Source: Ustilago trichophora (Eukaryota > Basidiomycota > Ustilaginomycetes > Ustilaginales > Ustilaginaceae). Taken from it: a DNA stretch of 64,000 nucleotides. Numbering within the stretch: position 1 is the stretch's first letter; every line of letters begins with the position of its first letter. The notes beneath the pieces were generated by a model that was not told the DNA's origin, did no database searches, and saw nothing but the letters and a program-made list of their open reading frames with translations. Shown piece after piece: positions 14,659-28,836 of the stretch. Made by a program: the position numbers and the translations under genes. The DNA is taken from assembly GCA_900323505.1 (NCBI GenBank), contig OOIN01000003.1, forward strand, positions 2,150,802 to 2,214,801, in the 5' to 3' direction.

Positions 14659-17163
14659 TCATGAGATAGGGGCACCGGTGGGAGCCGCCGCGGATCCGAC
14701 CTTGATGCCGAGCTTGGCGAGCTGACCCGTCAGCACATGTCGAGCAAAAGCGGACTGTACGACGTTGGTTCTGTCCAAGCAATCCAAGCACGACACCCTA
14801 AACACACCAGTCTGCCTGCTCAGTAACTCGACTCTGTCTGTGTTGCCTTCGTCGACCGTGCGGTGGTGGTAGTATTTCATCTCGCCTAGCGTCTGCTCCA
14901 TCTGACCGATCAGCTTAGCGACGTTTTCGAACTTCATACCAGAACATTCTTTGTGGAAGTCGAAGTCAACGTAATGCAGCTTCTTCCGGTCCCACGTCTT
15001 TCCGCTGTCCTTGGCCGCGTCCTCTGTTCGGAGTTTCTCGACAGCCTCGCGGTAAGCCTTAGAGATGCAGCCTTCCTTGCCACCTTGTTCGGCGAGGTTG
15101 ACGCAGGTGATGGAGCCGTATCTGTCGACCTGAACGGAAAAGTGCTTGCGACAGGCTTCGATGTTCTCGGCATCGGTGCGTTCGAGCACAGGCGGAGGTT
15201 TGAGCGAGAACGGGCTCTGCGACCAATACAGTGGAATAGATCCTCGGATCTGTACGAAGGACAAGACGTCTCCCACCAAGCTGGGAGCAGATTTGGGCGA
15301 GGGCAGGCTGCGAAGGACGTAGATGATCTGCTCGGTCTCGACAAAGTTGGCGACGTGACCAGATTCGTTGATGCCTCGACGTTGGTATCGCAAGCCAGCT
15401 CGTTCTTTTGATCGTCGTGAAATGACCATCATCTGACATCGTAACACTGCATCGGTATTGTCGGCTTCAGATGAAGCGTCGTCATCTTTGCTGACCTCAT
15501 CGATAGGTTGTATAGGCAGATTGACAGTCTGCAAATAGCCTTGCATGACGGGTAGAATGTAAGCGTGCAGGCCGGCGTGGATGAGATCCTTCGACATGTG
15601 CTCGTTGTGCCAAAAACGACGATCGGCCCTCCTCCACAGCGGAAGGTTCGGATAGGGCTCAGCAAGCAAGGGAAAGGTGGCCGGCTGTCGCGAGTCCGAG
15701 TCCGAGAGCTGTGAATTACGGGCTTGGTGTGTAGACTGCGAATCAGATCGCAAGCGAGGACTCGAATCGGATCTTGGGTTGCTCTCAAGCGCGCGTCTCT
15801 TGTTCTCCAGCGAGGTGGTGAGGTCAAAGTCGTGACTATACCAGAATTCGCCGCGAGCCCAGTATTTCGCCGTCTCCCTGACGGCTTTGTCTTCGAGCTC
15901 GGCCTGCTTGGCAGCATGCCATTGCTCTTCAGGCGTCGCAGTGACAGCAGCAGAGTCGGTCGCGGTCGTAGGCTCCTGGATCTCGACCGTTGAGCGAGGA
16001 GGGCCCGGCGCGGGAAGTTCAACAGCGTCTGTCGACGCTTCCGAGGCGTCGGCTATCTGTGACTGCGCAAAAGCGTCTTCAGAGATGGTCTCGATGCGTC
16101 CATCAGAAACAGCTCTGGCAGCACGAGTCAGCCACGGCCTGGATTTAGGCATGCGAAGTGTATCAGAACGCTGCGAAGTGGAGAGAGTAGAGAAAAATGG
16201 TTCCTTTGGGATGGCAGCTGGTGTCTCGACGTCGTCGTAGTCGGATTCGGAAGATTCACTCTCGCTTGCAGAGCTACTGTCAGAGGTGGAGTCTTGGTCG
16301 ATGGAGGAGTCGGCAGGCTGTGGGGCGGAAGGTGTGCTGATGGACACACCGCCCTGCTTGGCTATCTGGGCACGGATGGCCTGTGACGCTTCCTCTTGGA
16401 GCAGCGGGATGGCAAGCACACCGGTACAGCAATAGATGGGGCGAGTGTCGTGGAAATAGTGTCCAATCAGCTTGGAGCTGGTAATGACAAAGAGGTAGCT
16501 GCTGCTGAAAAAGCGTGAAAATCCGATGAGACCAGAGCATTCGATGAATGGGTCGTCCGATGATGCGCTGTCCAGGATGGATCTCCAAGCGGTAGGCTGC
16601 AAAGGTGTAATCTTTGCGTCTTTACTCCAATCGATGAGGAAGCCGACATCGAGCGAAGTGATGGGAGGAAGTGCTCCAGTAGCATTGAGCGGAGCCGTCG
16701 AGGTACTTAAAGAGGAAGCGTTGGAGGCTCCAATGGTTGCAACCTTGAAGCCGTCACCAGAGCCGAATGGACGCGAGGAAGAAGAGGTGCTTGCTGCTGC
16801 TGTTGTGCTGGCCTTGGCGTGCTGTGGAGCATATGAGTGATGATGATGATGATGATGATGATTGTGGTTGTGGCGACGCTGATGCTGCAAATGGCTAGAG
16901 CTGCGAGGGTAGATGAGAAGGCCCTTTTCGGTTGGCAAGATGCCAACACGGCGCTCTGGAAGTGGATGCGGGAAAGGTGGAACTGTCCAGGCTGCCATGG
17001 CAGAGCTGGAGCCTCTCGATTGCAGGAGCGGCCTTGAAGACATGGTCGGGGAAGATGAGGGTGACGTTGTTCTGTTTTTGGACGATGATGTGGTAGAAGC
17101 TGTGGCTGGCTTTGTCTTTTGCTGTTTAGAACCGCTCGACGAGGAGAAGATGGCTTTGAACAT
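14659..17163 (-). CDS. SAC phosphoinositide phosphatase, N-terminal part with CX5R loop (split gene, part A)
   Basis: SAC-family enzymes remove phosphates from phosphoinositides on cytosolic membrane faces. This 834-aa frame starts MFKAIFSSSSGSK. It has a low-complexity head with a poly-His tract near residue 100 and the SAC N-lobe (ECSGLIGFSRFFSSSYLFVITS; ARGEFWYSHDFDLTTSL). The core motifs follow: RRSKERAGLRYQRRG, HVANFVETEQII, FVQIRGSIPLYWSQ and the catalytic P-loop CLDCLDRTN (Cys about residue 792). It then stops about 30 residues later (...GAPIS, stop at 14659). A normal SAC domain continues with a linker and the WANN...DFTR.GKR block, which is missing here. That block is the start of another gene at 24698-26299. 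No splice donor leads out of the last codons to a nearby exon. Confidence 0.92.
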   Translation of the reverse strand: MFKAIFSSSSGSKQQKTKPATASTTSSSKNRTTSPSSSPTMSSRPLLQSRGSSSAMAAWTVPPFPHPLPERRVGILPTEKGLLIYPRSSSHLQHQRRHNHNHHHHHHHHSYAPQHAKASTTAAASTSSSSRPFGSGDGFKVATIGASNASSLSTSTAPLNATGALPPITSLDVGFLIDWSKDAKITPLQPTAWRSILDSASSDDPFIECSGLIGFSRFFSSSYLFVITSSKLIGHYFHDTRPIYCCTGVLAIPLLQEEASQAIRAQIAKQGGVSISTPSAPQPADSSIDQDSTSDSSSASESESSESDYDDVETPAAIPKEPFFSTLSTSQRSDTLRMPKSRPWLTRAARAVSDGRIETISEDAFAQSQIADASEASTDAVELPAPGPPRSTVEIQEPTTATDSAAVTATPEEQWHAAKQAELEDKAVRETAKYWARGEFWYSHDFDLTTSLENKRRALESNPRSDSSPRLRSDSQSTHQARNSQLSDSDSRQPATFPLLAEPYPNLPLWRRADRRFWHNEHMSKDLIHAGLHAYILPVMQGYLQTVNLPIQPIDEVSKDDDASSEADNTDAVLRCQMMVISRRSKERAGLRYQRRGINESGHVANFVETEQIIYVLRSLPSPKSAPSLVGDVLSFVQIRGSIPLYWSQSPFSLKPPPVLERTDAENIEACRKHFSVQVDRYGSITCVNLAEQGGKEGCISKAYREAVEKLRTEDAAKDSGKTWDRKKLHYVDFDFHKECSGMKFENVAKLIGQMEQTLGEMKYYHHRTVDEGNTDRVELLSRQTGVFRVSCLDCLDRTNVVQSAFARHVLTGQLAKLGIKVGSAAAPTGAPIS

Positions 17164-17727
17164 GGTGGCGGCGGATGAGAGTGCAGGTGTACGCTGAGAG
17201 GGCGTACAGCTTGCAAGCAAGCAAAGGTTCAGAGAAGTCTGTACGATGGGAGACGAGAAGGAGCTAAAGATAGGAGCAGGATGAGGCGAGGCTCGTGTGT
17301 CACCAAGCTGTTTAAAGTCCAGTACTCCCCCGAGATGGTGTGAGGCTAGGGGCAGAGGACATGCAATCCGCTAATCCTCACTGTCGTGCATGCATGCCAT
17401 GATGAAATGGACAATACAAAATCGCGAGTGTTGGTGTTCGAAATTTGGTACTGTATTCAATCTCGGTATCAAGCGGTCATGTCCTACGCAAAAGTAGTGG
17501 AGGCCAAAATGCACAACTGTCGAGCTTAACATCTTCAACTTTTGAATCGGCCGACCGGACCAAGTCCGATGCTCCACTTCCGAAAGCCGCTTGCTCTCGA
17601 GCCACCTTGATATACAGTACCTCGAACGTCAACTTGCTCGGCGAAGCTTCTCTCTCTCTCTCTCTCTACATAATCTTTTCCCTCATCAATCCTCCCGGAT
17701 CACGCTTTCGCAAGTATACAACCAGCC
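17164..17727. promoter_or_regulatory. Divergent intergenic region with TACTGTA/TACAGTA motifs and CT repeat
   Basis: Separates the SAC N-terminal gene (-) and the SnoaL-like gene (+). It contains TACTGTA at 17449-17455, TACAGTA at 17613-17619 and a (CT)n microsatellite near 17650-17670 close to the downstream ATG. No gene seen. Confidence 0.6.
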
Positions 17728-18338
17728 ATGGCTACTGAACACCACGAGGACAACGAGCTGCCACCAGCCGGAAACCCTGCCGAGGCATCCAACAAGGATG
17801 TCCCTCCCGCCATTGCCAAGTTTGTCGAGAATTTCTATAAGATTTCCGACACACCCGAGGTTCACGAGCAGTATGCCGACGAATACTTTATCCATGACGA
17901 GGAGAGGTTGAGCTTCCAGATTGGGCCTATGCAACCTACCAACAAGCGTGAGGGAATCGTTGCATGGAGGCAAAAGGGCTGGGAAGGCGTCACCCGACGC
18001 AAGCATGTTGTCAACGGCGTCTTCATCAGCCCCAAATGGGAGAACGAGATCATGCTCGATGGTACCGTCCAGATGGACAAGAATGGCTCCACACTCCACT
18101 TCAATTGGGCCGGAAGGATGGTGTTTGATCAGAAGAGCCTCGACCAGGGCTCTCCTAAGATCGAGACCTACAAAGTCTGGCTGGTAAGTGGCTTTGCAAC
18201 ACGATGAAGATTCGCAATTGTCTCTTGGCAGGCTTTGACTCTGCTCTTCCATATTGAGACTGACACCACTTTACTTTTATCTCGTATATCCATGCCATCC
18301 ATGCCATCCATGCCGATAACTTGCAGAGCCAGGATTAA
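17728..18338 (+). CDS. SnoaL/NTF2-like small protein
   Basis: Small cone-shaped alpha+beta fold protein of the SnoaL-like type; no reaction can be assigned. Exon 1 (17728-18183) starts MATEHHEDNELPP and contains FVENFYKISDTPEVHEQYADEYF, the typical N-terminal helix and strand of these proteins. REGIVAWRQKGWEGV, NEIMLDGTV and the C-terminal strand IETYKVWL follow. The exon ends at a GTAAGT donor. I place the acceptor at 18326 so that a short second exon encodes SQD and a stop (155 aa). An earlier acceptor near 18231 would give a longer, unrelated tail and is less likely. It lies between the two separated SAC genes and has no obvious functional link to them. Confidence 0.65.
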
Positions 18339-19596
18339 GACCAAGCAAAAGTCAAACTCAGACGCACCTAGTACAATGACCCATCAACACAAGCAGCGTG
18401 ACAAGATGCTTTCGTCGAGGCTGCTGTGGTATCAATGTGCAAGTCGACTTTGCTGGGCTTTGCCTTCGTGGAGAATCCGAGGCTGGTTGAAATTTGAGTT
18501 TCTGGTCACAAGCCAGTCTTTGTAGTGAGGCCACCGAGCTTAGTTTGATTTCGAAAATTCACCATGCACTCTATCGATCATCTCGAGAGGCCGGGCCAAG
18601 GTCACTGTCTACCAGTATACAGACCTCGGTCGATGTGGCAAGTCTAGCTCGATTACTTCATGAGCCCAAAATGACAACCAGCATAGTTCATGGTCAAACT
18701 TGTGTCTGTCGTTGGTCGAGGAAAGCCAAAGGGTGGTTGCCGGAGCAAATCAGGCTCAGAGCTAGGCAGGACCCTGATGGACAACCCCGCAAGCTACGAG
18801 CGCTCAGTGCTTGAGAATGATGGCGTGCGGGGGCTCCTTGGGCGAGTATATTTGCATAGGCGAAGCTCTTCTATCACCGAGCAGGTCGCCGAAATCTATT
18901 GAGCAGGCGAGCAACCGGATAACGCTCCTCTGCCTCTGATAACCGACCACTCGACGGCAACTTTCCGCGGTCGGACGCCGTCCGAAACATTTTTTCCCTA
19001 CTTTTTTTTTAATTTTTATTTTTCTAAAATATATCTTCTTAAGAAAAAAGAATGAGGGTGAGCTGCTGCTGTTTGCTGTCAAGAAACTCCACTTTTGCGG
19101 GGGAAGCTGTACTGTACAGTACCTGTACTGTACGGCAATAGAAGCCATCAGAGTCCGACAGACCCTCTCTACGCACAGTCAAATAAGGTAGCCGAGCCAA
19201 AAACAGCTTGGAAAAGGCTCAGGCTTGGCCATCCATTGCATGAGGCAGATGCTGAATTCTGAGAATGAGATTGTGCCTCTCCTACACGGCCCTGCATATC
19301 CTCAGAAGAATCGTCACTACAGTACTAGGGCACACGGACCACTCTCCGCGCTATCGAGTGGGACTTTGCAGAGGCATCAGAGCTGAATCCATCATTCCTC
19401 AGCCCCGGACTACACGCGCCCCCACCGGACCCTCTCCGAAAGCTGGCAACGACCACGGTAGACACAATGAGAAAACCATCTCATGTTCACACATATAAGC
19501 TAGCTAGATTGTCCCAACGACTCTTCTTCACAGCTCCACCCATTCAGTATTGTTCTCCTTTCCAACCTCGTTACCGTACACACAAGAATAGCAAAC
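18339..19596. other. Gene-free region upstream of the decarboxylase gene
   Basis: Over 1.2 kb without a recognisable gene. It has an A/T-rich patch (18990-19050), a compound palindromic TACTGTACAGTA...TACTGTA cluster at 19110-19132 and TACAGTA at 19318-19324. Confidence 0.6.
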
Positions 19597-20685
<1,089 letters not shown>

Positions 20686-20725
20686 AAAGACTCGTCTGTA
20701 CTTGTTGCGTTTCGTTGAATAAAGA

Positions 20726-21321
20726 TTAGCATTGCTCCATCATAGTGATGGCTGAATTCGAACTTGTGCTGCTTTGCGAGGTGTCGAGCATCTTTTCCAT
20801 GCAGATGGAGGAATCGACTCCGGCGTAATATCCAAAGTTGGGGATGATTCGGTATCCGTTACGTGCGTAGAAGCGCTGTGCTTCTGCAAGCTTGTCGCCA
20901 GTCTCGAGAAGCAGTCGATGGATGCCGAGGGCGAGCGATTTTTGCTCTAGAAAGACGAGCACTGCGTTTGCAGCGCCCTTACCTCGAGCTTGCTTGGTGA
21001 CAAACATCCTTTTGAGCTCGGCAGAATTCTTGTCAAGTCTTCGAAGCCCTCCGCAGCCTACCGGTTTGTGGTTCTGATAAGCTACACAGAAGCACGTCAT
21101 GTCGTCGGCCGTCGGTGGCGTGCCTGGCTCCGAGTCGACACGTTCATACAAAGCGGCGATGTCGATGCGCTGCTGCTGTCGCAGATCACAGGCATCTGGG
21201 TGATCCCAGCCCACCTCTTTGACTCTCAACGTGTCTGTCGTCAAGATCCGCCTCAGCAAAGAGTGAGAGTCAGGTCTCGCAAAAGGCTAGATTTTGACAA
21301 GTGACGAAACTTACCCTCCAT
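20726..21321 (-). CDS. GNAT-family N-acetyltransferase
   Basis: Small acetyl-CoA-dependent acetyltransferase of unknown substrate. The main frame has no ATG at its 5' end. I join a 7-nt first exon (21315-21321, ATG GAG G) through a GTAAGT...CGACAG intron (21235-21314) to exon 2 (21234-20726), giving MEDTLRVKEVGWDHPDA and 171 aa. The GNAT core is visible: beta-4 (CVAYQNHKPVGCGGLR), the acetyl-CoA loop MFVTKQARGKGAANAVL, LLLETGDKLAEAQRFYARNGY and a C-terminal strand. The Ser/Thr-rich tail is short. It ends 40 bp from the decarboxylase stop, so the two genes are convergent. Confidence 0.82.
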
Positions 21322-21765
21322 ATCGGATGCGTTCCGCGGAGCGTCCGATTCTATTAAGTATGCTAAAGTTGGAGAAGATGATGGCTGTCTAGATGCTACT
21401 ACAAGATGATGAGCATGGGCATGAGCATGAGCATGAGCATGGGGAAAGGCGAAAGCGCAACCGCGACACAAGTGTGTGTTGGAGTCATACACAAAAGTAC
21501 GGCGGGGACACACAGATGACAACTCGGCGCTTTGAACGGCATCTCAACAGCCCGGTCAATTTTTGTAGAGGTGTTACAGTACCTCATTGCACTGCGCACG
21601 CGCCTCTTTGTCAAGATCTCTTCCAATAGGTGGATTGCGATAATTAGAGCGGAATGCGGATTGCCGAGACAGTCAAGGTGTTGTGATAGGCATTTTAGCC
21701 GACAAGAGGCATCCTTTCTAGCGCACTCGCTCGACTCAGGAAGAACCTGTTTTCAAACAGAGAGA

Positions 21766-21800
<35 letters not shown>

Positions 21801-22014
21801 GAGACGCGCACACAAAATTTCGCCTGTTTGTTCTGTGATTTTTGTGTGATTTTTTGTGGAAATTGAATCCATCACGCCGCACCCGCCACAGGCGCCCCGC
21901 TGCTACGAGTGTACTGTACAGTACAGTATCTCGCAGAACCACCGTCAGTCTCATCTCTGTGGCACCTCTCTTCCGTCCTGCTTTGTCACCGTCATCTTCA
22001 AGGCATTGGACAGC
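21322..22014. promoter_or_regulatory. Divergent intergenic region (GNAT / MATE) with GA repeat and palindrome cluster
   Basis: Contains imperfect GAGCAT/GGGCAT repeats (about 21411-21440), TACAGTA at 21575-21581, a long (GA)n tract at about 21761-21796 and an overlapping TACTGTACAGTACAGTA cluster at 21912-21928. The MATE frame is open upstream through part of this region, but the ATG at 22015 is preferred. Confidence 0.6.
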
Positions 22015-24390
22015 ATGAGCTTCACACCACGCTACGGCTCGTCCGTAACGAGGGATTACACCTTGCTTCAAGGCCATCCTAGCTCGTATCACCATTTTGG
22101 TGCCCTTGGCTCGAGCCAGCAACGCGTTGCTAACCAACAACCGACTGCAGCGGACGATGACGCTCACAGCACCCACGGCGATCACGATCACGATGACGAT
22201 CACTATGACCACGATCAAGAAGCTGAAGCCTCGGCATCTTCCATCCATCTCGACGATGCCACCGATAACGGTCTCAGCAACATTTCGCTTCCTGCAAACC
22301 ATCTAGCTGTCCCCAGCTCCCCTGCCTTTGGTCGCGGCAATCGTCTCGCAACCGCTCCCATCGCATCGCCCCGAAATCGCCGACCCAGCGTCAATGCTTA
22401 CTCACAAGTCGCGGGCATTCCATCCGAGTATCTGCTCGGAGGCTCCGCCGTTCCTCCCACACATCACCCCAATTCCGCTTCCAACATCACCCTCGGAGCA
22501 CCCGTCGCACCATCGTCCACTGTACCAAAACAAACCAGAGCATCTCTCCCAGATGGAGATCAACGTAGAAGCGAAGAGTTAGACGCCACCGAATCTACTT
22601 CACTCCTTCACCGCCGACCAACACACCACGCAGATGCTCATCAACACCATGGCCAAAGTGCAGTGTCCTCCTCGTACGGTGCAGTGCGACGTTCATCCAT
22701 CGACGGTGCCAGCATCGTCAGCGGCGGCCCAGGTGTCAGCGGCTGGGCGGCTGCAAACATGATGCGAGAAGCTCCTTTGCCAGGGGTTGAGCAGATCGAG
22801 TCGATTGCTCGCGAGTCCCACGACCACATTGCTTGGAGGGAGGCTAGAGTCTTGATTGGTTATACTGTCCCCATCTTTGCCACCCATCTTCTAGAACTCT
22901 CGCTCTCGGTAGCCTCTGTCTTTTCTCTCGGCCACCTTGGTACCGTCGAGCTTGCCGCCGCCTCCCTCTCCAGCATGACCGCCAACGTCTCTGGCTTCAG
23001 TGTTCTTTCTGGTTTCATCTCGGCCCTCGACACTCTTCTCCCATCCGCGTATACCCAACAACCCAAGTCGGTCGGACTGTGGACACAGCGCATGGGCGTC
23101 ATTCTCATGGGCATTCTCCCCCTCATCCTCGCCGTTTGGCTCAATGCAGAACCGATCTTGATCAGCATCGGTCAGGATCCCGAGGTCGCCTATCTTGCAG
23201 GTCGCTACCTTGCCGTGCTCTCCATCGGTTTGCCCGGTTATGCTCTCTTTGAGGTCTGCCGACGTTACTTGCAGGCGCAAGGCCTTATGCACGCTCCCAC
23301 CATCGTCCTCATCTTTGTCTCTCCGCTCAACGCCATTGCCAACTATCTGCTCGTTTGGGGGCCTGACTCCATCAGGCTTGGTTTTATCGGAGCTCCACTG
23401 GCTTCAGCGCTGTCCATGTGGCTCATGGCCATCCTCTGCTTTTTCCAGTGCGTCCTCGGTCCTCGCGATGCCTGGGACGGCTTTACCACCGCAGCCTTCA
23501 AGTGGGATGGTGTCAGGCCCGTTCTCTACCTCGGTTTTGCTGGCATGATCAGTCTTGCCGCTGAATGGTGGGCTTGGGAGATTGTCGGTCTCGTCACCAG
23601 CCAGCTCGGTGTTGTCGCGCTCGCTGCCCAATCGGTGCTCCTCGTCAGTTCCTCCGTCACGTACCAGCTGCCCTTCGGCGCTTCGGTGGCTACTGCCGTC
23701 CGCGTCGGCAATCTTCTCGGCGCCAACCGACCCGACGAAGCCAAGATCTCGAGTCGAGTTGCTCTCATCCTTTCGCTTGCCATGGGTGGTCTCAACTCTG
23801 CTCTCTTCCTCATCTTCCGCAAGCAGTGGGGTTGGCTCTTCAGCTCCGACATCGAAGTCATCAAGCTCGTCGAGTACATCTTGCCCTTGCTTGCTTTCTT
23901 CCAAGTTGCTGACGGTATCTGTGGCATTGCTGGCGGCGTTCTCCGTGGCACCGGAAGGCAGGCGGCTGGAGCTGGCATCAACATGGTTTCCTACTACATT
24001 ATCGGCATCCCAATTGGCCTGATCCTCACCTTCACTCGTATCAACCTCGGACTGGCTGGCCTCTGGTGGGGTTTGACCATCGCGCTGCTATTCGGCTCGG
24101 CCGGTATGATCTGGCTCATCGGCATCACGGACTGGGATTGGGAGGTCAAGAAGGTACAGCTGCGCATGGCTGTCGACGATCCCTCAGATCCTTCTCACCA
24201 AGCTGCTACATCTGCACATGGCAACGCAAAGCCCGATCCTGAGGCCGCATCCGCCCCTCGCCTGGCTCAGACCTCGTCCGCCGTCGAAGCCATCAACAGC
24301 CGTGATCCGGCCCTCAGCCCCCTTGGCCTGCGTCCATCCTCGCTGGCTGGCTCCGTGATCGAGGAGGAAGAGGACCAGGTGTCCATCTGA
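22015..24390 (+). CDS. MATE-family multidrug/toxin efflux transporter (791 aa)
   Basis: Twelve-TM antiporter that exports organic cations or metabolites across the plasma or vacuolar membrane. The long N-terminal cytosolic region is rich in His/Asp (GDHDHDDDHYDHD) and Ser. The first MatE half starts at WREARVLIGYTVPIFATHLLELSLSV..., then YTQQPKSVGLWTQR, GLPGYALFEVCRRYLQAQG and NAIANYLLVWG. The second half shows SLAAEWWAWEIVG, LPFGASVATAVRVGNLLGA, ADGICGIAGGVLRGTGRQ and GLAGLWWGLTIALL. These match eukaryotic MATE proteins. Single exon. An in-frame upstream ATG at 21856 would add about 50 residues. It is convergent with the SAC C-terminal gene. Confidence 0.93.
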   Translation: MSFTPRYGSSVTRDYTLLQGHPSSYHHFGALGSSQQRVANQQPTAADDDAHSTHGDHDHDDDHYDHDQEAEASASSIHLDDATDNGLSNISLPANHLAVPSSPAFGRGNRLATAPIASPRNRRPSVNAYSQVAGIPSEYLLGGSAVPPTHHPNSASNITLGAPVAPSSTVPKQTRASLPDGDQRRSEELDATESTSLLHRRPTHHADAHQHHGQSAVSSSYGAVRRSSIDGASIVSGGPGVSGWAAANMMREAPLPGVEQIESIARESHDHIAWREARVLIGYTVPIFATHLLELSLSVASVFSLGHLGTVELAAASLSSMTANVSGFSVLSGFISALDTLLPSAYTQQPKSVGLWTQRMGVILMGILPLILAVWLNAEPILISIGQDPEVAYLAGRYLAVLSIGLPGYALFEVCRRYLQAQGLMHAPTIVLIFVSPLNAIANYLLVWGPDSIRLGFIGAPLASALSMWLMAILCFFQCVLGPRDAWDGFTTAAFKWDGVRPVLYLGFAGMISLAAEWWAWEIVGLVTSQLGVVALAAQSVLLVSSSVTYQLPFGASVATAVRVGNLLGANRPDEAKISSRVALILSLAMGGLNSALFLIFRKQWGWLFSSDIEVIKLVEYILPLLAFFQVADGICGIAGGVLRGTGRQAAGAGINMVSYYIIGIPIGLILTFTRINLGLAGLWWGLTIALLFGSAGMIWLIGITDWDWEVKKVQLRMAVDDPSDPSHQAATSAHGNAKPDPEAASAPRLAQTSSAVEAINSRDPALSPLGLRPSSLAGSVIEEEEDQVSI

Positions 24391-24697
24391 TTTTCTCAGT
24401 GCCAATTCCTCTGGCTCCATACAGCAACACATCATTCATATTCATTTCCATATCAGTCATCTTTGCAACACATGAAGCAAGAGGTTTGAAGCGCCGGTAG
24501 AAGTGTGCAGAACAAGGTGGATGCTTGGCATGCTGAGCCTGACTCGACGGTGCGGCTTCGAAAGAATGTCACGGATGAATCATTTGCAGAGGTAGATACG
24601 GCATGGTCATGCTCCGAGGCTAGAATTAGGGGTATAAGAGCAAGTGAAGCACAAATAGGCAGCAACAATGGACAGATGCAAAGCGGATGGGCGTATC
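24391..24697. other. Convergent intergenic region (MATE / SAC part B)
   Basis: 307 bp between two 3' ends. No gene or repeat recognised. Confidence 0.6.
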
Positions 24698-26299
24698 TTA
24701 TAGCCAAAGACGACGCTTCAAGCCTTCAATCAGAGGGCCAAACAGCGGCATCATGGCCTTTGCCTCGTCGAGACTGTGTTGGCAGGCAAGCAGATTGCAG
24801 GGGAAGAGTCGATGAAACAGATTAGTCTTGTCGCATCCCAGATTCCAAAGTACAAGCCAACGCCGGAATACATACCTCTGAATAGTCTTGTGCGTGATAA
24901 AAGGCTGTTCTACGTCCTCATCATCAGGATCGAAAGCTCCCGCATCCATACAGTACTCGCGCAACAGCTCGACGATCATTCCTACTTTTCGTTTGGATGA
25001 GACACACCCTTCCTCGTCATCGTCATCTTGAGCATCGTATTCACGCGTGCGTTTACCTATGGCATCGTTGCCTCGCTGAGACTTTGGTGGATTGCCCTTG
25101 ACCGTGTGATGCAGGTGACGCGAGCGAAGTGTTCCATTGGCGTTGGAGAGTATCCTAGGATCGTCGATCTCGTCCGAGATGGCACGGAAGGCAAAGATGC
25201 GCCGAGCAGATTCAGTTGCGTGGGCAGAGGAAGCCGTCTCAGCAGCAGCAGTGGTGGTGGTGATGTTCTTAATTGAGGCTGTGGTGTTGCTGCGCGAGAT
25301 CGAGTTGAGATACGTCACGACAAAGCCCCAGTTGTCATCTGGATGCGAAGATTCGTTTGGCGAGGTCACGTAGAGGCCTGAACATAAGCATGGCGTGTAG
25401 AGAGTAGATAGATGGGGACGAGAGCGAGCGTCAGTACTCGAGCTTTTTGCTCTACCGAGCAGCGCGATGGGAGGAGAATTCAAGACATACCTTCTTGAAT
25501 ACCGACGATATCGCCAGCGAGGACCTTGGTAAATTCGTTGAGCTTCTCACTACCAAAGTCGTAGCTGCAGACATACAGTGCCTTGGCCGTCAGAAGCGCT
25601 ACTTTTTCCTCGAGCTTCAACGCTTGGACCGTGTTGGCTTGCAAAGGTGAGCAAAGTGTCCAGCCGCCGATCAAGTCCTCAGACTCGGGAACGACTTCAC
25701 GACGACAGCTTTCAATCGCAGAGGCTCGGACACGTGCCAGACGGATTGATTCGGATGGATCACGGCTGTTGAGATCGTCGTAGTAGCGCTCAAGACCGTG
25801 CAGACCGATCGAGCCGTAAGTGAAGTCGAGGACGGTCTGTCGGAAGAAGTCGGTCACGGCGCCTTGCACCATTCTGTATACCGAATTGGTCGCATCGTCT
25901 GTTTGAGCATCCAGAGAAGCAAGTGTGGTACATGATTCGTCAGTGAGGCTGCGCCGAAGCATTGGTCGACACCAGAAAAATAGTGTTCTACGTACTGATC
26001 ATGCCGAGGAAGCTCCTCTTTCCTGTCCTCGTGAAATCAACCTTGAGCGCATCCGTGTTGGAATAGCAGTGCGAGATAGCGTTGGCATTGTTGGCCCAGA
26101 TGTCGTTAAACGCATCGTCGAGCGCCTTTTCCATCAGCACAAACCGAGCTTTTGGGATATGGCTGTCTTTGGAGAGAGGAATGGTGCTGGACCTCGAGTC
26201 TGCTTCCGTCCTCAAAGGTTGGGCAGCGCTCGGTGGAGCTACTGCAGTGATGATCTTTTCTCGCGTTGCCGCTGGTGGCGACGAATCTGCGGCTGACAT
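24698..26299 (-). CDS. SAC/hSac2 C-terminal part as a separate gene (split gene, part B)
   Basis: I join four exons: 25996-26299, 25491-25898, 24876-25377 and 24698-24773, with GTACGT, GTATGT and GTATGT donors and CAG acceptors, all in frame (429 aa). The first 50 or so residues are a low-complexity linker (MSAADSSPPAATREK...). Then comes the block that normally follows the SAC P-loop: AFNDIWANNANAIS and LKVDFTRTGKRSFLGMI. Family-type continuation follows: NDATNSVYRMVQGAVTDFFR, LDFTYGSIGL, a GGWTLCSPLQ...ALYVCSYDF region resembling the hSac2 domain of INPP5F, and a C-terminal helix SLDEAKAMMPLFGPLIEGLK. It has no CX5R loop of its own, which is in the gene at 14659-17163. AG directly precedes the ATG (CACAG|ATG), so a spliced leader cannot be excluded. 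Confidence 0.88.
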
Positions 26300-26745
26300 C
26301 TGTGCTGCAGTGGATGAATATAAGAGCTGTCGAGGATATGAATGGTTTGGTAAGAGGGCATCGAAACGAAAGGGATGAGCAAGGCTCGGGTCGAAAAAGT
26401 GACGTGCATGATGCGCCCGCCCCTAAGCGACTCGGAATTGACAAAAATTCACCAAAAAAGTGGCAGCCGCGTCAGGGGAGATCACGACTTAACAGTTTGT
26501 TCCAATGCGCCACGCCCTTCTGCCCTCGTCAACATTCACGTCGCTCGCCACCATTCAAGCAGGCACAGACTCATCGCATCGCATCGCACCGTCACCAGGA
26601 ATTCCAGACACGAGAGTATGTACAGTATGCGACAATCTATTACCGTGACGAATGAAAGAGAGCGTATGTGCGATCTGAACAAGACCATTACAAAGAACTA
26701 AAAACAACGAGAATGAAATGAGATGCAAGGACAAGAGACGCTTGC
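26300..26745. other. Short intergenic region between two minus-strand genes
   Basis: 446 bp holding the promoter of SAC part B and the 3' flank of the PlsC-PAP2 gene. TACAGTA at 26621-26627. No gene seen. Confidence 0.5.
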
Positions 26746-28836
26746 TCAGCTGTCTCCGTAAGCCTTGATCTTGTTGTACAACAAGACGGAGCAGTATGAC
26801 TCTTCGATCTTACTCGCTACCAATTGACTGAAGACGGCAATATAGAAAAGAACGAAGGACAATGCAAAGAGAGACCATGCTGCTCGCATCACAGCGCCGG
26901 TGATTTCAGCACGAGTGTACTGATGCGTCCACTTGGGGAGGATCATCTTCCTCTTCTTCTCGGACAGAAGCTGCTCCTTCTCGGGGTCGTGCTTCTTGGG
27001 CTTGGGCGGAGGGTAGAGCTGGCCAGGCAGGTGGACGATAAGCACGTAGATGAGTGCGGTCGACATAAGAGCGACGAGCAGCTGCATAAAGATGAGCCAC
27101 GACGATCGGCCGAGCGGGCAAATCAAAATCGTGGCACCAGCACGGTAGAAAGCAACGAGGCAGGCCTTGCCAGAAAGAATGCTCCAAAGCATCGATGTAT
27201 TGAGGATGAGCTGTTTAGGATCGCGCAGCTTCAGCTCGTGGCCGACGTGTTCGCTCCATACCATCGCCGGGATTTTTGCGGGAAGAATGAACATTCTCAG
27301 CATCGTAACGATGAGGAAGAACGACCCTACGCCAGCCGAGATAGCAATCTGGATACCCATGGACAGCTTGTCGAATCTGGCGTCGAGGAAGGTGCTCCAA
27401 GCCCAACCCCACAGGCCTCCGACAATCCAGCCGCAGACGACATCCAAGGGCCAGTGGAGGGCGAGGTACAGACGCGAGATACCACTGGCGAGCGTCAGGA
27501 TGGTCATGATGACGTGAATAGAGGCGGGAAAGTTGAACTGAACGTCAACGTGGTTGCGGCTGAAGTAGTAGGAAGCGTACACACACGCCATGAAAGACGC
27601 GTGACCCGACGGAAACGAATAGTCGTACTGCCTGAGCGGCCGCCTCATCTGGTACGGGTTCATCTTGAGGCGATCCGCAGCGACCCAGGCGGGACGAGGA
27701 ACCGGACGGAGGACCTTGATCAGGTTGACAATGCCAAAAGTGACGACACAGGCTCGCATGATGATGATCAGTGTCAGCTGATTCCACCTAGACCAGTAGA
27801 TGCAAGCACCAATCACGATCAACACCGACTCCTGACAGATGTAATGGAAAATCAGCGACGGGATCTTGAGCCCAGGGATGCTTTGGATGAAGTTGAGGAT
27901 GGCCACCTCAAACGATCGGTAGGTAGGGTGAAGACGAGCGGAAAGCAGATGTCTCCAGGCTACCTTATCGCGGTAGTCGATGTTGTGACGCTGGCACTGC
28001 CTGAGGGAGCACTCGACGATCTGAGTCTCGCACTCCTCCTTGATCTCCTCTGCCGTCTTGCCGTGTAGTTCAATAGGCTCGAGGAGGGCATAGGTAACCT
28101 TGGCGTAGGGCATCATCATGAGCAGCAAAAAGTCGAAAAGGAAGCTCGAGTCGGCCTTGCGCAGGTGGATCGGATAGGGCATGTCGTAGCTGATGACCAC
28201 CGGTACGAGCTCGATTGCGTCAGGATGGGAAGCAGCAAACTCGAACGTAGGCAGACCAAACTTGACAAAGTTGTTGCGGGCCACTGTGACTGCTTGTGGG
28301 AAGATGACGAGATTCTTGGCAAAGTTCGGGTTGTTGGTCCACTCTTCGAGCACCTTGACCAACGGCGTGCCTCTCTTCTTGACGTAGGAGAAGGTGGAAG
28401 TGAGGTAGCCCGTGATGCCTTTCGAGGCAACTTCTGCAACAATGATGGCTGAGTTGGTCAAAGTTGGAAGGCATCCATCGAGAAAGATGTAGGGATGCTC
28501 GGCACAGTAGATGCGTCGAGTGGTAGCTTGCGAAACCTCGTTCAAGGTGGAAGCAGTGAATGTTTCGGCGGGCACTGGCTTGCCCTCGTGGTCAACAACC
28601 TCGAACTTGACGAATGGGAAGATTGACCTCGGGTGGACACCTTTGGGTCCCGTGATGTACACAGCGATTGAGATTCGGCAGAAGAGGTAGATGAGCTGGA
28701 AAATTCCCAGCACAATTCCGAACGGAATGTAGAGGATCCACAGGAAAGACCACCATGTGAGGGATTTCGGATTGAGACGTCGTGTGGGCCACGAAGCCTC
28801 GCAGGCGGCAGTGTCGAGGTCGGTTTCGACAGCCAT
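26746..28836 (-). CDS. Acyltransferase (PlsC-like) - PAP2 phosphatase fusion, membrane protein
   Basis: 696-aa single-exon frame starting MAVETDLDTAACEASW. Residues about 20-60 carry a membrane hairpin (LTWWSFLWILYIPFGIVLGI...LIYLFCRISIAVY), as in LPCAT/GPAT-type enzymes. The acyltransferase region follows, but its motifs deviate: EHPYIFLDG (HX5D instead of HX4D) and IFPQAVTVARNNFVKFG (FPQ where FPEG is usual). From about residue 350 there are more TM segments and a canonical PAP2 phosphatase: KVLRPVPRP (KX6RP), SFPSGHASF and SRLYLALHWPLD (SRX5HX3D). The C-terminus has a basic PKPKKHDPEK segment and further TM helices. The arrangement suggests linked phosphatidate synthesis and dephosphorylation, probably at the ER, but the acyltransferase may be weak or have another role. 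The frame is open upstream to 29127; the ATG at 28836 is preferred. Confidence 0.87.
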   Translation of the reverse strand: MAVETDLDTAACEASWPTRRLNPKSLTWWSFLWILYIPFGIVLGIFQLIYLFCRISIAVYITGPKGVHPRSIFPFVKFEVVDHEGKPVPAETFTASTLNEVSQATTRRIYCAEHPYIFLDGCLPTLTNSAIIVAEVASKGITGYLTSTFSYVKKRGTPLVKVLEEWTNNPNFAKNLVIFPQAVTVARNNFVKFGLPTFEFAASHPDAIELVPVVISYDMPYPIHLRKADSSFLFDFLLLMMMPYAKVTYALLEPIELHGKTAEEIKEECETQIVECSLRQCQRHNIDYRDKVAWRHLLSARLHPTYRSFEVAILNFIQSIPGLKIPSLIFHYICQESVLIVIGACIYWSRWNQLTLIIIMRACVVTFGIVNLIKVLRPVPRPAWVAADRLKMNPYQMRRPLRQYDYSFPSGHASFMACVYASYYFSRNHVDVQFNFPASIHVIMTILTLASGISRLYLALHWPLDVVCGWIVGGLWGWAWSTFLDARFDKLSMGIQIAISAGVGSFFLIVTMLRMFILPAKIPAMVWSEHVGHELKLRDPKQLILNTSMLWSILSGKACLVAFYRAGATILICPLGRSSWLIFMQLLVALMSTALIYVLIVHLPGQLYPPPKPKKHDPEKEQLLSEKKRKMILPKWTHQYTRAEITGAVMRAAWSLFALSFVLFYIAVFSQLVASKIEESYCSVLLYNKIKAYGDS

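Follow-up and report, generated by a model that had tools for sequence, protein, structure and literature searches.

Can one lipid phosphatase be encoded as two separate genes, with the break falling inside its catalytic domain and the halves lying in reversed order? The question is raised by a locus of the smut fungus Ustilago trichophora, within a window of 64,000 bases (the whole stretch analyzed, positions 2150802-2214801 of contig C3 in a 38.8 Mb genome of 45 contigs). Two minus-strand genes of this window, gene A (14659-17163) and gene B (24698-26299), carry complementary parts of a SAC phosphatase. The answer favored here, with a probability of roughly 0.7, is that a Sac2/INPP5F-type phosphatase was split once and that its A and B chains would together form one phosphatase. 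Sequence comparison supports the claim of the original prediction that one SAC2/INPP5F-type phosphatase is encoded by two genes: both are intact and constrained, and no complete second gene was found. Its further idea, that the two products act as one phosphatase, is the best reading of indirect evidence, from which assembly and activity are inferred.

Gene A is an intact single-exon open reading frame of 834 amino acids that comprises the SAC N-lobe and the P-loop. PF02383 (SAC N-lobe) is the sole Pfam family found for it (E 4e-79), its loop CLDCLDRTN matches the CX5R(T/S) catalytic pattern, and the stop codon lies 30 residues past DRTNVVQS. Reading frame, profile and stop position thus confirm the earlier description of an N-lobe and catalytic loop followed by a stop. 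A database search with A returned 25 proteins, A itself included, from the 8000 candidates sharing most words, and 21 of the 25 end 20-34 residues after DRTNVVQS (20 measured in an alignment; P0017, at 34, read individually). The exceptions are P0011 and P0024, which end before the loop, and P0023 and the distant P0025, which continue through it. In the alignment, which holds 20 of the 25 matches and leaves out P0011, P0017, P0023, P0024 and P0025, C792 to N800 are invariant in 20/20 sequences; 21 of the 29 loop positions (784-812) are invariant, as against none of the last 22. The presumed promoter of A, at 17164-17412 on the minus strand, aligns with a second copy of the locus on contig C5 until the C5 blocks part at ~17413.

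Gene B runs on the minus strand from an ATG at 26299 to a stop at 24698 and encodes 429 amino acids in four exons. Exon 1 (25996-26299) holds an N-terminal tail and the SAC segment up to GMI, exon 2 (25491-25898) the end of that segment and the start of the hSac2 domain; exon 3 (24876-25377) is followed by exon 4 (24698-24773), which encodes the conserved C-terminus ...GLKRRLWL. All three introns are GT-AG and measure 97, 113 and 102 nt; the original prediction gave coordinates and strand correctly and left the introns unmentioned. The protein leads from its own N-terminal tail through the end of the SAC catalytic domain (AFNDIWANNANAIS...DFTRTGKRS) into an hSac2 domain, and PF12456 (hSac2) matches both the B locus (E 5.1e-23) and the B homologue P0027 (E 6.6e-27). 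This profile, together with the mapping on Sac1 and P0023 given below, confirms the proposal that B consists of the missing SAC part and then hSac2. When window B is aligned with 11 of its 43 database matches, conservation peaks in the SAC segment, where 65 of 72 positions are invariant in the 12 sequences; the hSac2 core has 41 of 107 invariant, and the tail 2 of 52. The corresponding identities to Thecaphora are 94.4%, 64.5% and 21.4%.

Upstream of B, a presumed promoter (26300-26745, minus strand) fills the space up to a PAP2 gene and can be aligned with C5. A block at ~26393-26439 weakly matches read-through sequence 5' of B in two of four other smut records tried (P0042 and P0047), among the matches listed by a loose tblastn search with many chance matches; within the window these have E values of 0.39-0.41, and on C5 P0042 reaches 0.02. 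The read-through before B in the four records was also examined for a sequence that could encode A in another frame, and shuffled letters gave compatible runs of about the same length.

Mapping onto unsplit proteins shows where the split falls. On the solved structure of yeast Sac1 (3lwt), profile matches place A at residues 148-422 and B at 436-504. The fused Violaceomyces protein P0023 (717 amino acids) aligns by tblastn with A over residues 4-500 and with B over 514-717. It gives no further match anywhere in the window up to an E value of 1, and some 13 of its residues take the place of the stop and start found in the smuts. In both mappings the halves jointly cover one ancestral domain without overlap, so the break is placed, on this sequence evidence, in the short linker between the helix that we take, from Sac1, to follow the P-loop and the WANNANAIS segment. 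The features of Sac2/INPP5F are divided over the pair, PF02383 and the loop in A, the SAC C-terminal part and hSac2 in B; neither gene alone holds them all in one polypeptide, and only the A and B pair matches.

Comparison across fungi places the arrangement in two orders of smuts. The B search returned 43 proteins; of the 29 read, 20 start with a tail of their own and without a P-loop, 4 begin inside B and 5 are fused. Unsplit homologues that carry the loop and the SAC end in one protein are P0023, P0048, P0050, P0055 and P0058. By taxonomy, the split taxa belong to Ustilaginales (Ustilaginaceae and Testicularia) and, through Thecaphora, to Urocystidales, and Violaceomyces (Violaceomycetales, of the same class) keeps one fused gene. 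The contiguous gene that the original prediction proposed to look for in other fungi thus exists outside the split clade, for example as Violaceomyces P0023. The A tree holds 21 rows, 4 of them fused, and the B tree 19, of which 5 are fused. A branch with support 87/84 separates the split rows from the fused ones in the B tree; the A tree, which has long branches and gappy fused rows, gives the same separation weakly (43/60). The simplest reading looks like one old fission common to Ustilaginales and Thecaphora. As a separate observation, records of the plants Cichorium endivia (P0017/P0049) and Adiantum nelumboides (P0104) hold fungal genes close to smuts and their relatives, which are probably contamination.

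The genome contains the same split twice. Its eight PF02383 matches form four pairs, as read from lengths and scores. On C5, intact A and B genes keep the order and strand seen in the window, 11.4 kb apart versus 7.5 kb, and six of the seven C3/C5 alignment blocks above 1 kb are 83-88% identical, the seventh 77%. The C5 interval holds ~4 kb unaligned to the window between A and the next gene, including an open reading frame for a DDE_Tnp_4 transposase (L012:3052-4098), presumably PIF/Harbinger-like, with neighboring open reading frames; P0002 (Ustilago trichophora), among the database matches, is the A protein of C5. Between the two copies, A has a ratio of nonsynonymous to synonymous substitution (dN/dS, or omega; NG86 in our own script) of 0.186 and B one of 0.134, which drops to 0.048 in B codons 56-240, showing that both halves are under purifying selection. 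Intact frames, complementary coverage and low omega uphold the description of a clean split into two intact halves. No complete Sac2-type gene was found in the genome by the PF12456 scan or by the search with fused P0023. PF12456 matches the two B loci only, with none in the Sac1-like pair C1/C2, and beyond A and B, P0023 matches just fragments of the three remaining SAC pairs: C1/C2 and C10/C11, which we take to be Sac1 and Fig4, match it across the break within one open frame, and C9/C42 matches it only before the break.

Diverged pairs are the rule for SAC genes in this 38.8 Mb genome, and such divergence, with 77-88% DNA identity at this locus, suggests a hybrid or diploid genome. In PMC8951962, the genome of U. 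trichophora NBRC 100157 is given as 20.7 Mb, and that of U. xerochloae (36 Mb) is marked as diploid or as containing additional fungi.

In the proposed mechanism, a single-chain Sac2/INPP5F-type phosphoinositide phosphatase would have been split once in the ancestor of Ustilaginales and Thecaphora, the cut falling at the linker inside the SAC catalytic domain just past the P-loop helix. One product, from gene A, would then supply the N-lobe and the P-loop; the other, from gene B, would supply the last ~70 SAC residues, including the TRTGKR segment, fused to hSac2. Each gene has its own start, stop and upstream region. The two proteins are predicted to bind and rebuild the SAC fold, with the B segment completing the catalytic domain and hSac2 providing localization or dimerization. 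The substrate of the pair is probably PI4P, by analogy with animal Sac2. Because the SAC fragment is the best conserved part of B, the halves probably still work together. We also consider it reasonably likely that a whole lineage of smut fungi has an obligate two-chain Sac2-type lipid phosphatase, with the nucleophile loop from one gene and the closing segment from the other. Its activity could then depend on whether the chains come together or on how much of each is present, and hSac2 targeting would bring the missing piece to the membrane.

How the reversed order arose is a question of origin only, and either answer is compatible with a two-chain enzyme. As originally predicted, both genes lie on the minus strand and the C-terminal gene is upstream: B precedes A in transcription direction by 7.5 kb, and the intervening region (17164-24697) holds three plus-strand genes, which could be a small inserted cluster. 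They are a small gene without a Pfam match (17728-18207), an amidohydrolase (Amidohydro_2, 19597-20373) and a MATE transporter (22015-24390), the last two identified by Pfam. On the far side of B, the gene at 26746-28836 encodes 696 amino acids with a PAP2 domain in the second half; its long N-terminal part has no Pfam match and looks acyltransferase-like by eye.

In four records (U. tritici, U. loliicola, Thecaphora frezii and the smut-like Cichorium endivia pair), A and B have consecutive locus tags, so the 7.5 kb spacing is not general. Eight A/B pairs lie on contigs of equal size, namely those four, Testicularia and three further contigs (one of 6633 bases); we infer that equal size means the same contig. 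The original account, a tandem duplication of the whole gene followed by loss of opposite halves, had merged two events: the fission is old, and the separation is not common to the four records with neighboring tags. The reversed order may still be ancestral, by that same route, with the three genes arriving between the halves later, a tentative proposal that falls somewhat short of even odds. It draws on the neighboring tags and the lack of generality of the gap, and inserting three genes between adjacent B and A would take a single step. Against it, the alternative of fission in place, which would give A then B and leave the change of order to a later time in this lineage, begins with a simpler step, and tblastn found no remnants of the opposite halves in the window. 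No repeats of at least 40 bases (14-base seeds) were found within 10000-32000, and scanning A against genome and viral contig collections found no relative's DNA.

The flanking alcohol oxidase shares its contig size with both A and B in Testicularia (678276), with A in one record (35116) and with B in another (1560981), and its longest contig differs from the A/B contig in Thecaphora and Pseudozyma flocculosa; none of the alcohol oxidase locus tags orders A relative to B. Three long-chain alcohol oxidase homologues, P0123, P0125 and P0126 (two from Malassezia and one other), carry a Bin3-type methyltransferase domain (PF06859). A candidate shared motif, ATGCACGTCA, occurs upstream of B in both copies (26400-26409) and upstream of A on C5, and with one mismatch upstream of A on C3 (17382-17391). 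It was chosen post hoc, its 7 occurrences in the window with up to one mismatch are not above chance (4.8 expected), and it was not used.

A rival to the two-chain reading is that the halves are independent: A would be a SAC protein that is either self-sufficient or inactive, and B an hSac2 adaptor that keeps a SAC-like helical segment for folding. We regard this as unlikely. In its favor, the genes are separate and have separate upstream regions, A is under looser constraint than its neighbors, Pseudozyma flocculosa is listed with B only, and hSac2 is found in animal Mover too, a protein for which PMC6856015 gives few predicted domains, hSac2 and a calmodulin-binding region. It is nonetheless the SAC segment, not hSac2, that is most conserved in B, and it retains a part common to Sac1. 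Such conservation would be surprising if the protein made use of hSac2 alone; two chains forming one SAC domain are the best reading. The eight pairs on equal-sized contigs, four of them with neighboring tags, speak in the same direction.

Several observations weigh against the assembly of A and B into one enzyme after a single split. Pseudozyma flocculosa appears among the matches listed with B only (P0040) and without A. Moreover, A evolves faster than three neighboring genes (0.186 versus 0.039-0.094 between the copies), and a single split does not reach the star level of the tree analysis in either tree. AlphaFold models the SAC segment of P0027 with block means of 52-64 and the hSac2 core with 62-93, 10 of its 11 blocks being above 80; the low confidence of the segment suits a chain waiting for its partner and also suits a shallow alignment of 19 sequences.

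A third explanation, that the A and B transcripts become a single message through trans-joining or a long-range event in cis, is very unlikely. The original prediction had pointed to an AG directly before the B start codon. It is present in the window (CACAG|ATG) and not conserved in the C5 copy (CAAGG|ATG). By eye, no GTRNGT-type donor lies near the end of A, and both A copies end in TCATGAGG. B also precedes A in transcription order. The unconserved AG, the stop soon after the loop in 20/20 aligned A proteins and the lack of a joined smut protein among the matches listed, where lengths to ~1459 amino acids were admitted, disfavor the trans-joining offered as an option earlier. The database also has some B proteins in complete, spliced form, P0028 being one example; at a guess, these may come from RNA contigs. 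Finally, an assembly error or decaying pseudogenes have virtually no chance of explaining the locus, and nothing was found in their favor: the earlier prediction had named an assembly error, and a complete SAC2-type gene elsewhere with both pieces unexpressed or unconstrained, as outcomes that would count against it, but the second, diverged C5 copy with the same genes, order and split, the same split in relatives' records, intact frames and low omega in substance rule out the first, and no such complete gene was found.

Across two orders of smut fungi, then, the cut falls inside a catalytic domain. If the chains reassemble, they would constitute a natural split phosphoinositide phosphatase and show where the SAC domain tolerates a break. 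They would also serve as a model for building split SAC enzymes that can be controlled, and would prompt one to ask why the split has persisted. The finding also bears on annotation: some records call A "related to SAC1", B goes under "Inositol phosphatase" or as hypothetical, and yet the catalytic domain is complete in neither. A literature search that left most subscription journals outside its coverage found no paper describing a split SAC phosphatase, a weak sign that the split is undescribed; nor was a paper found for the U. maydis locus tags near UMAG_02023.

Among the known systems closest to the smut pair are the unsplit homologues of basidiomycetes, namely P0023 of Violaceomyces palustris, P0055 of Mrakia and P0058 of Vanrija, which have the same parts, collinear as A then B, but in one chain. 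Yeast Sac1 (3lwt, 4tu3) has the same catalytic fold, of which A and B cover complementary stretches; it is a single chain, however, and in the smut the hSac2 family is confined to the B loci and missing from the Sac1-like pair. Gene fissions usually fall between domains. In fungal folate biosynthesis, judging by the abstract of PMC4224340, one ancestral gene likewise became two, but its genes serve consecutive enzymes, whereas the smut case cuts one catalytic domain. Animal Sac2, according to PMC6829663, acts selectively on PI4P and relies on its homology-Sac2 domain to dimerize and to localize; like the smut pair, it has a SAC domain with a CX5R-type loop followed by hSac2. Unlike that single animal protein, the smuts use two genes and two chains, with the break inside the catalytic domain.

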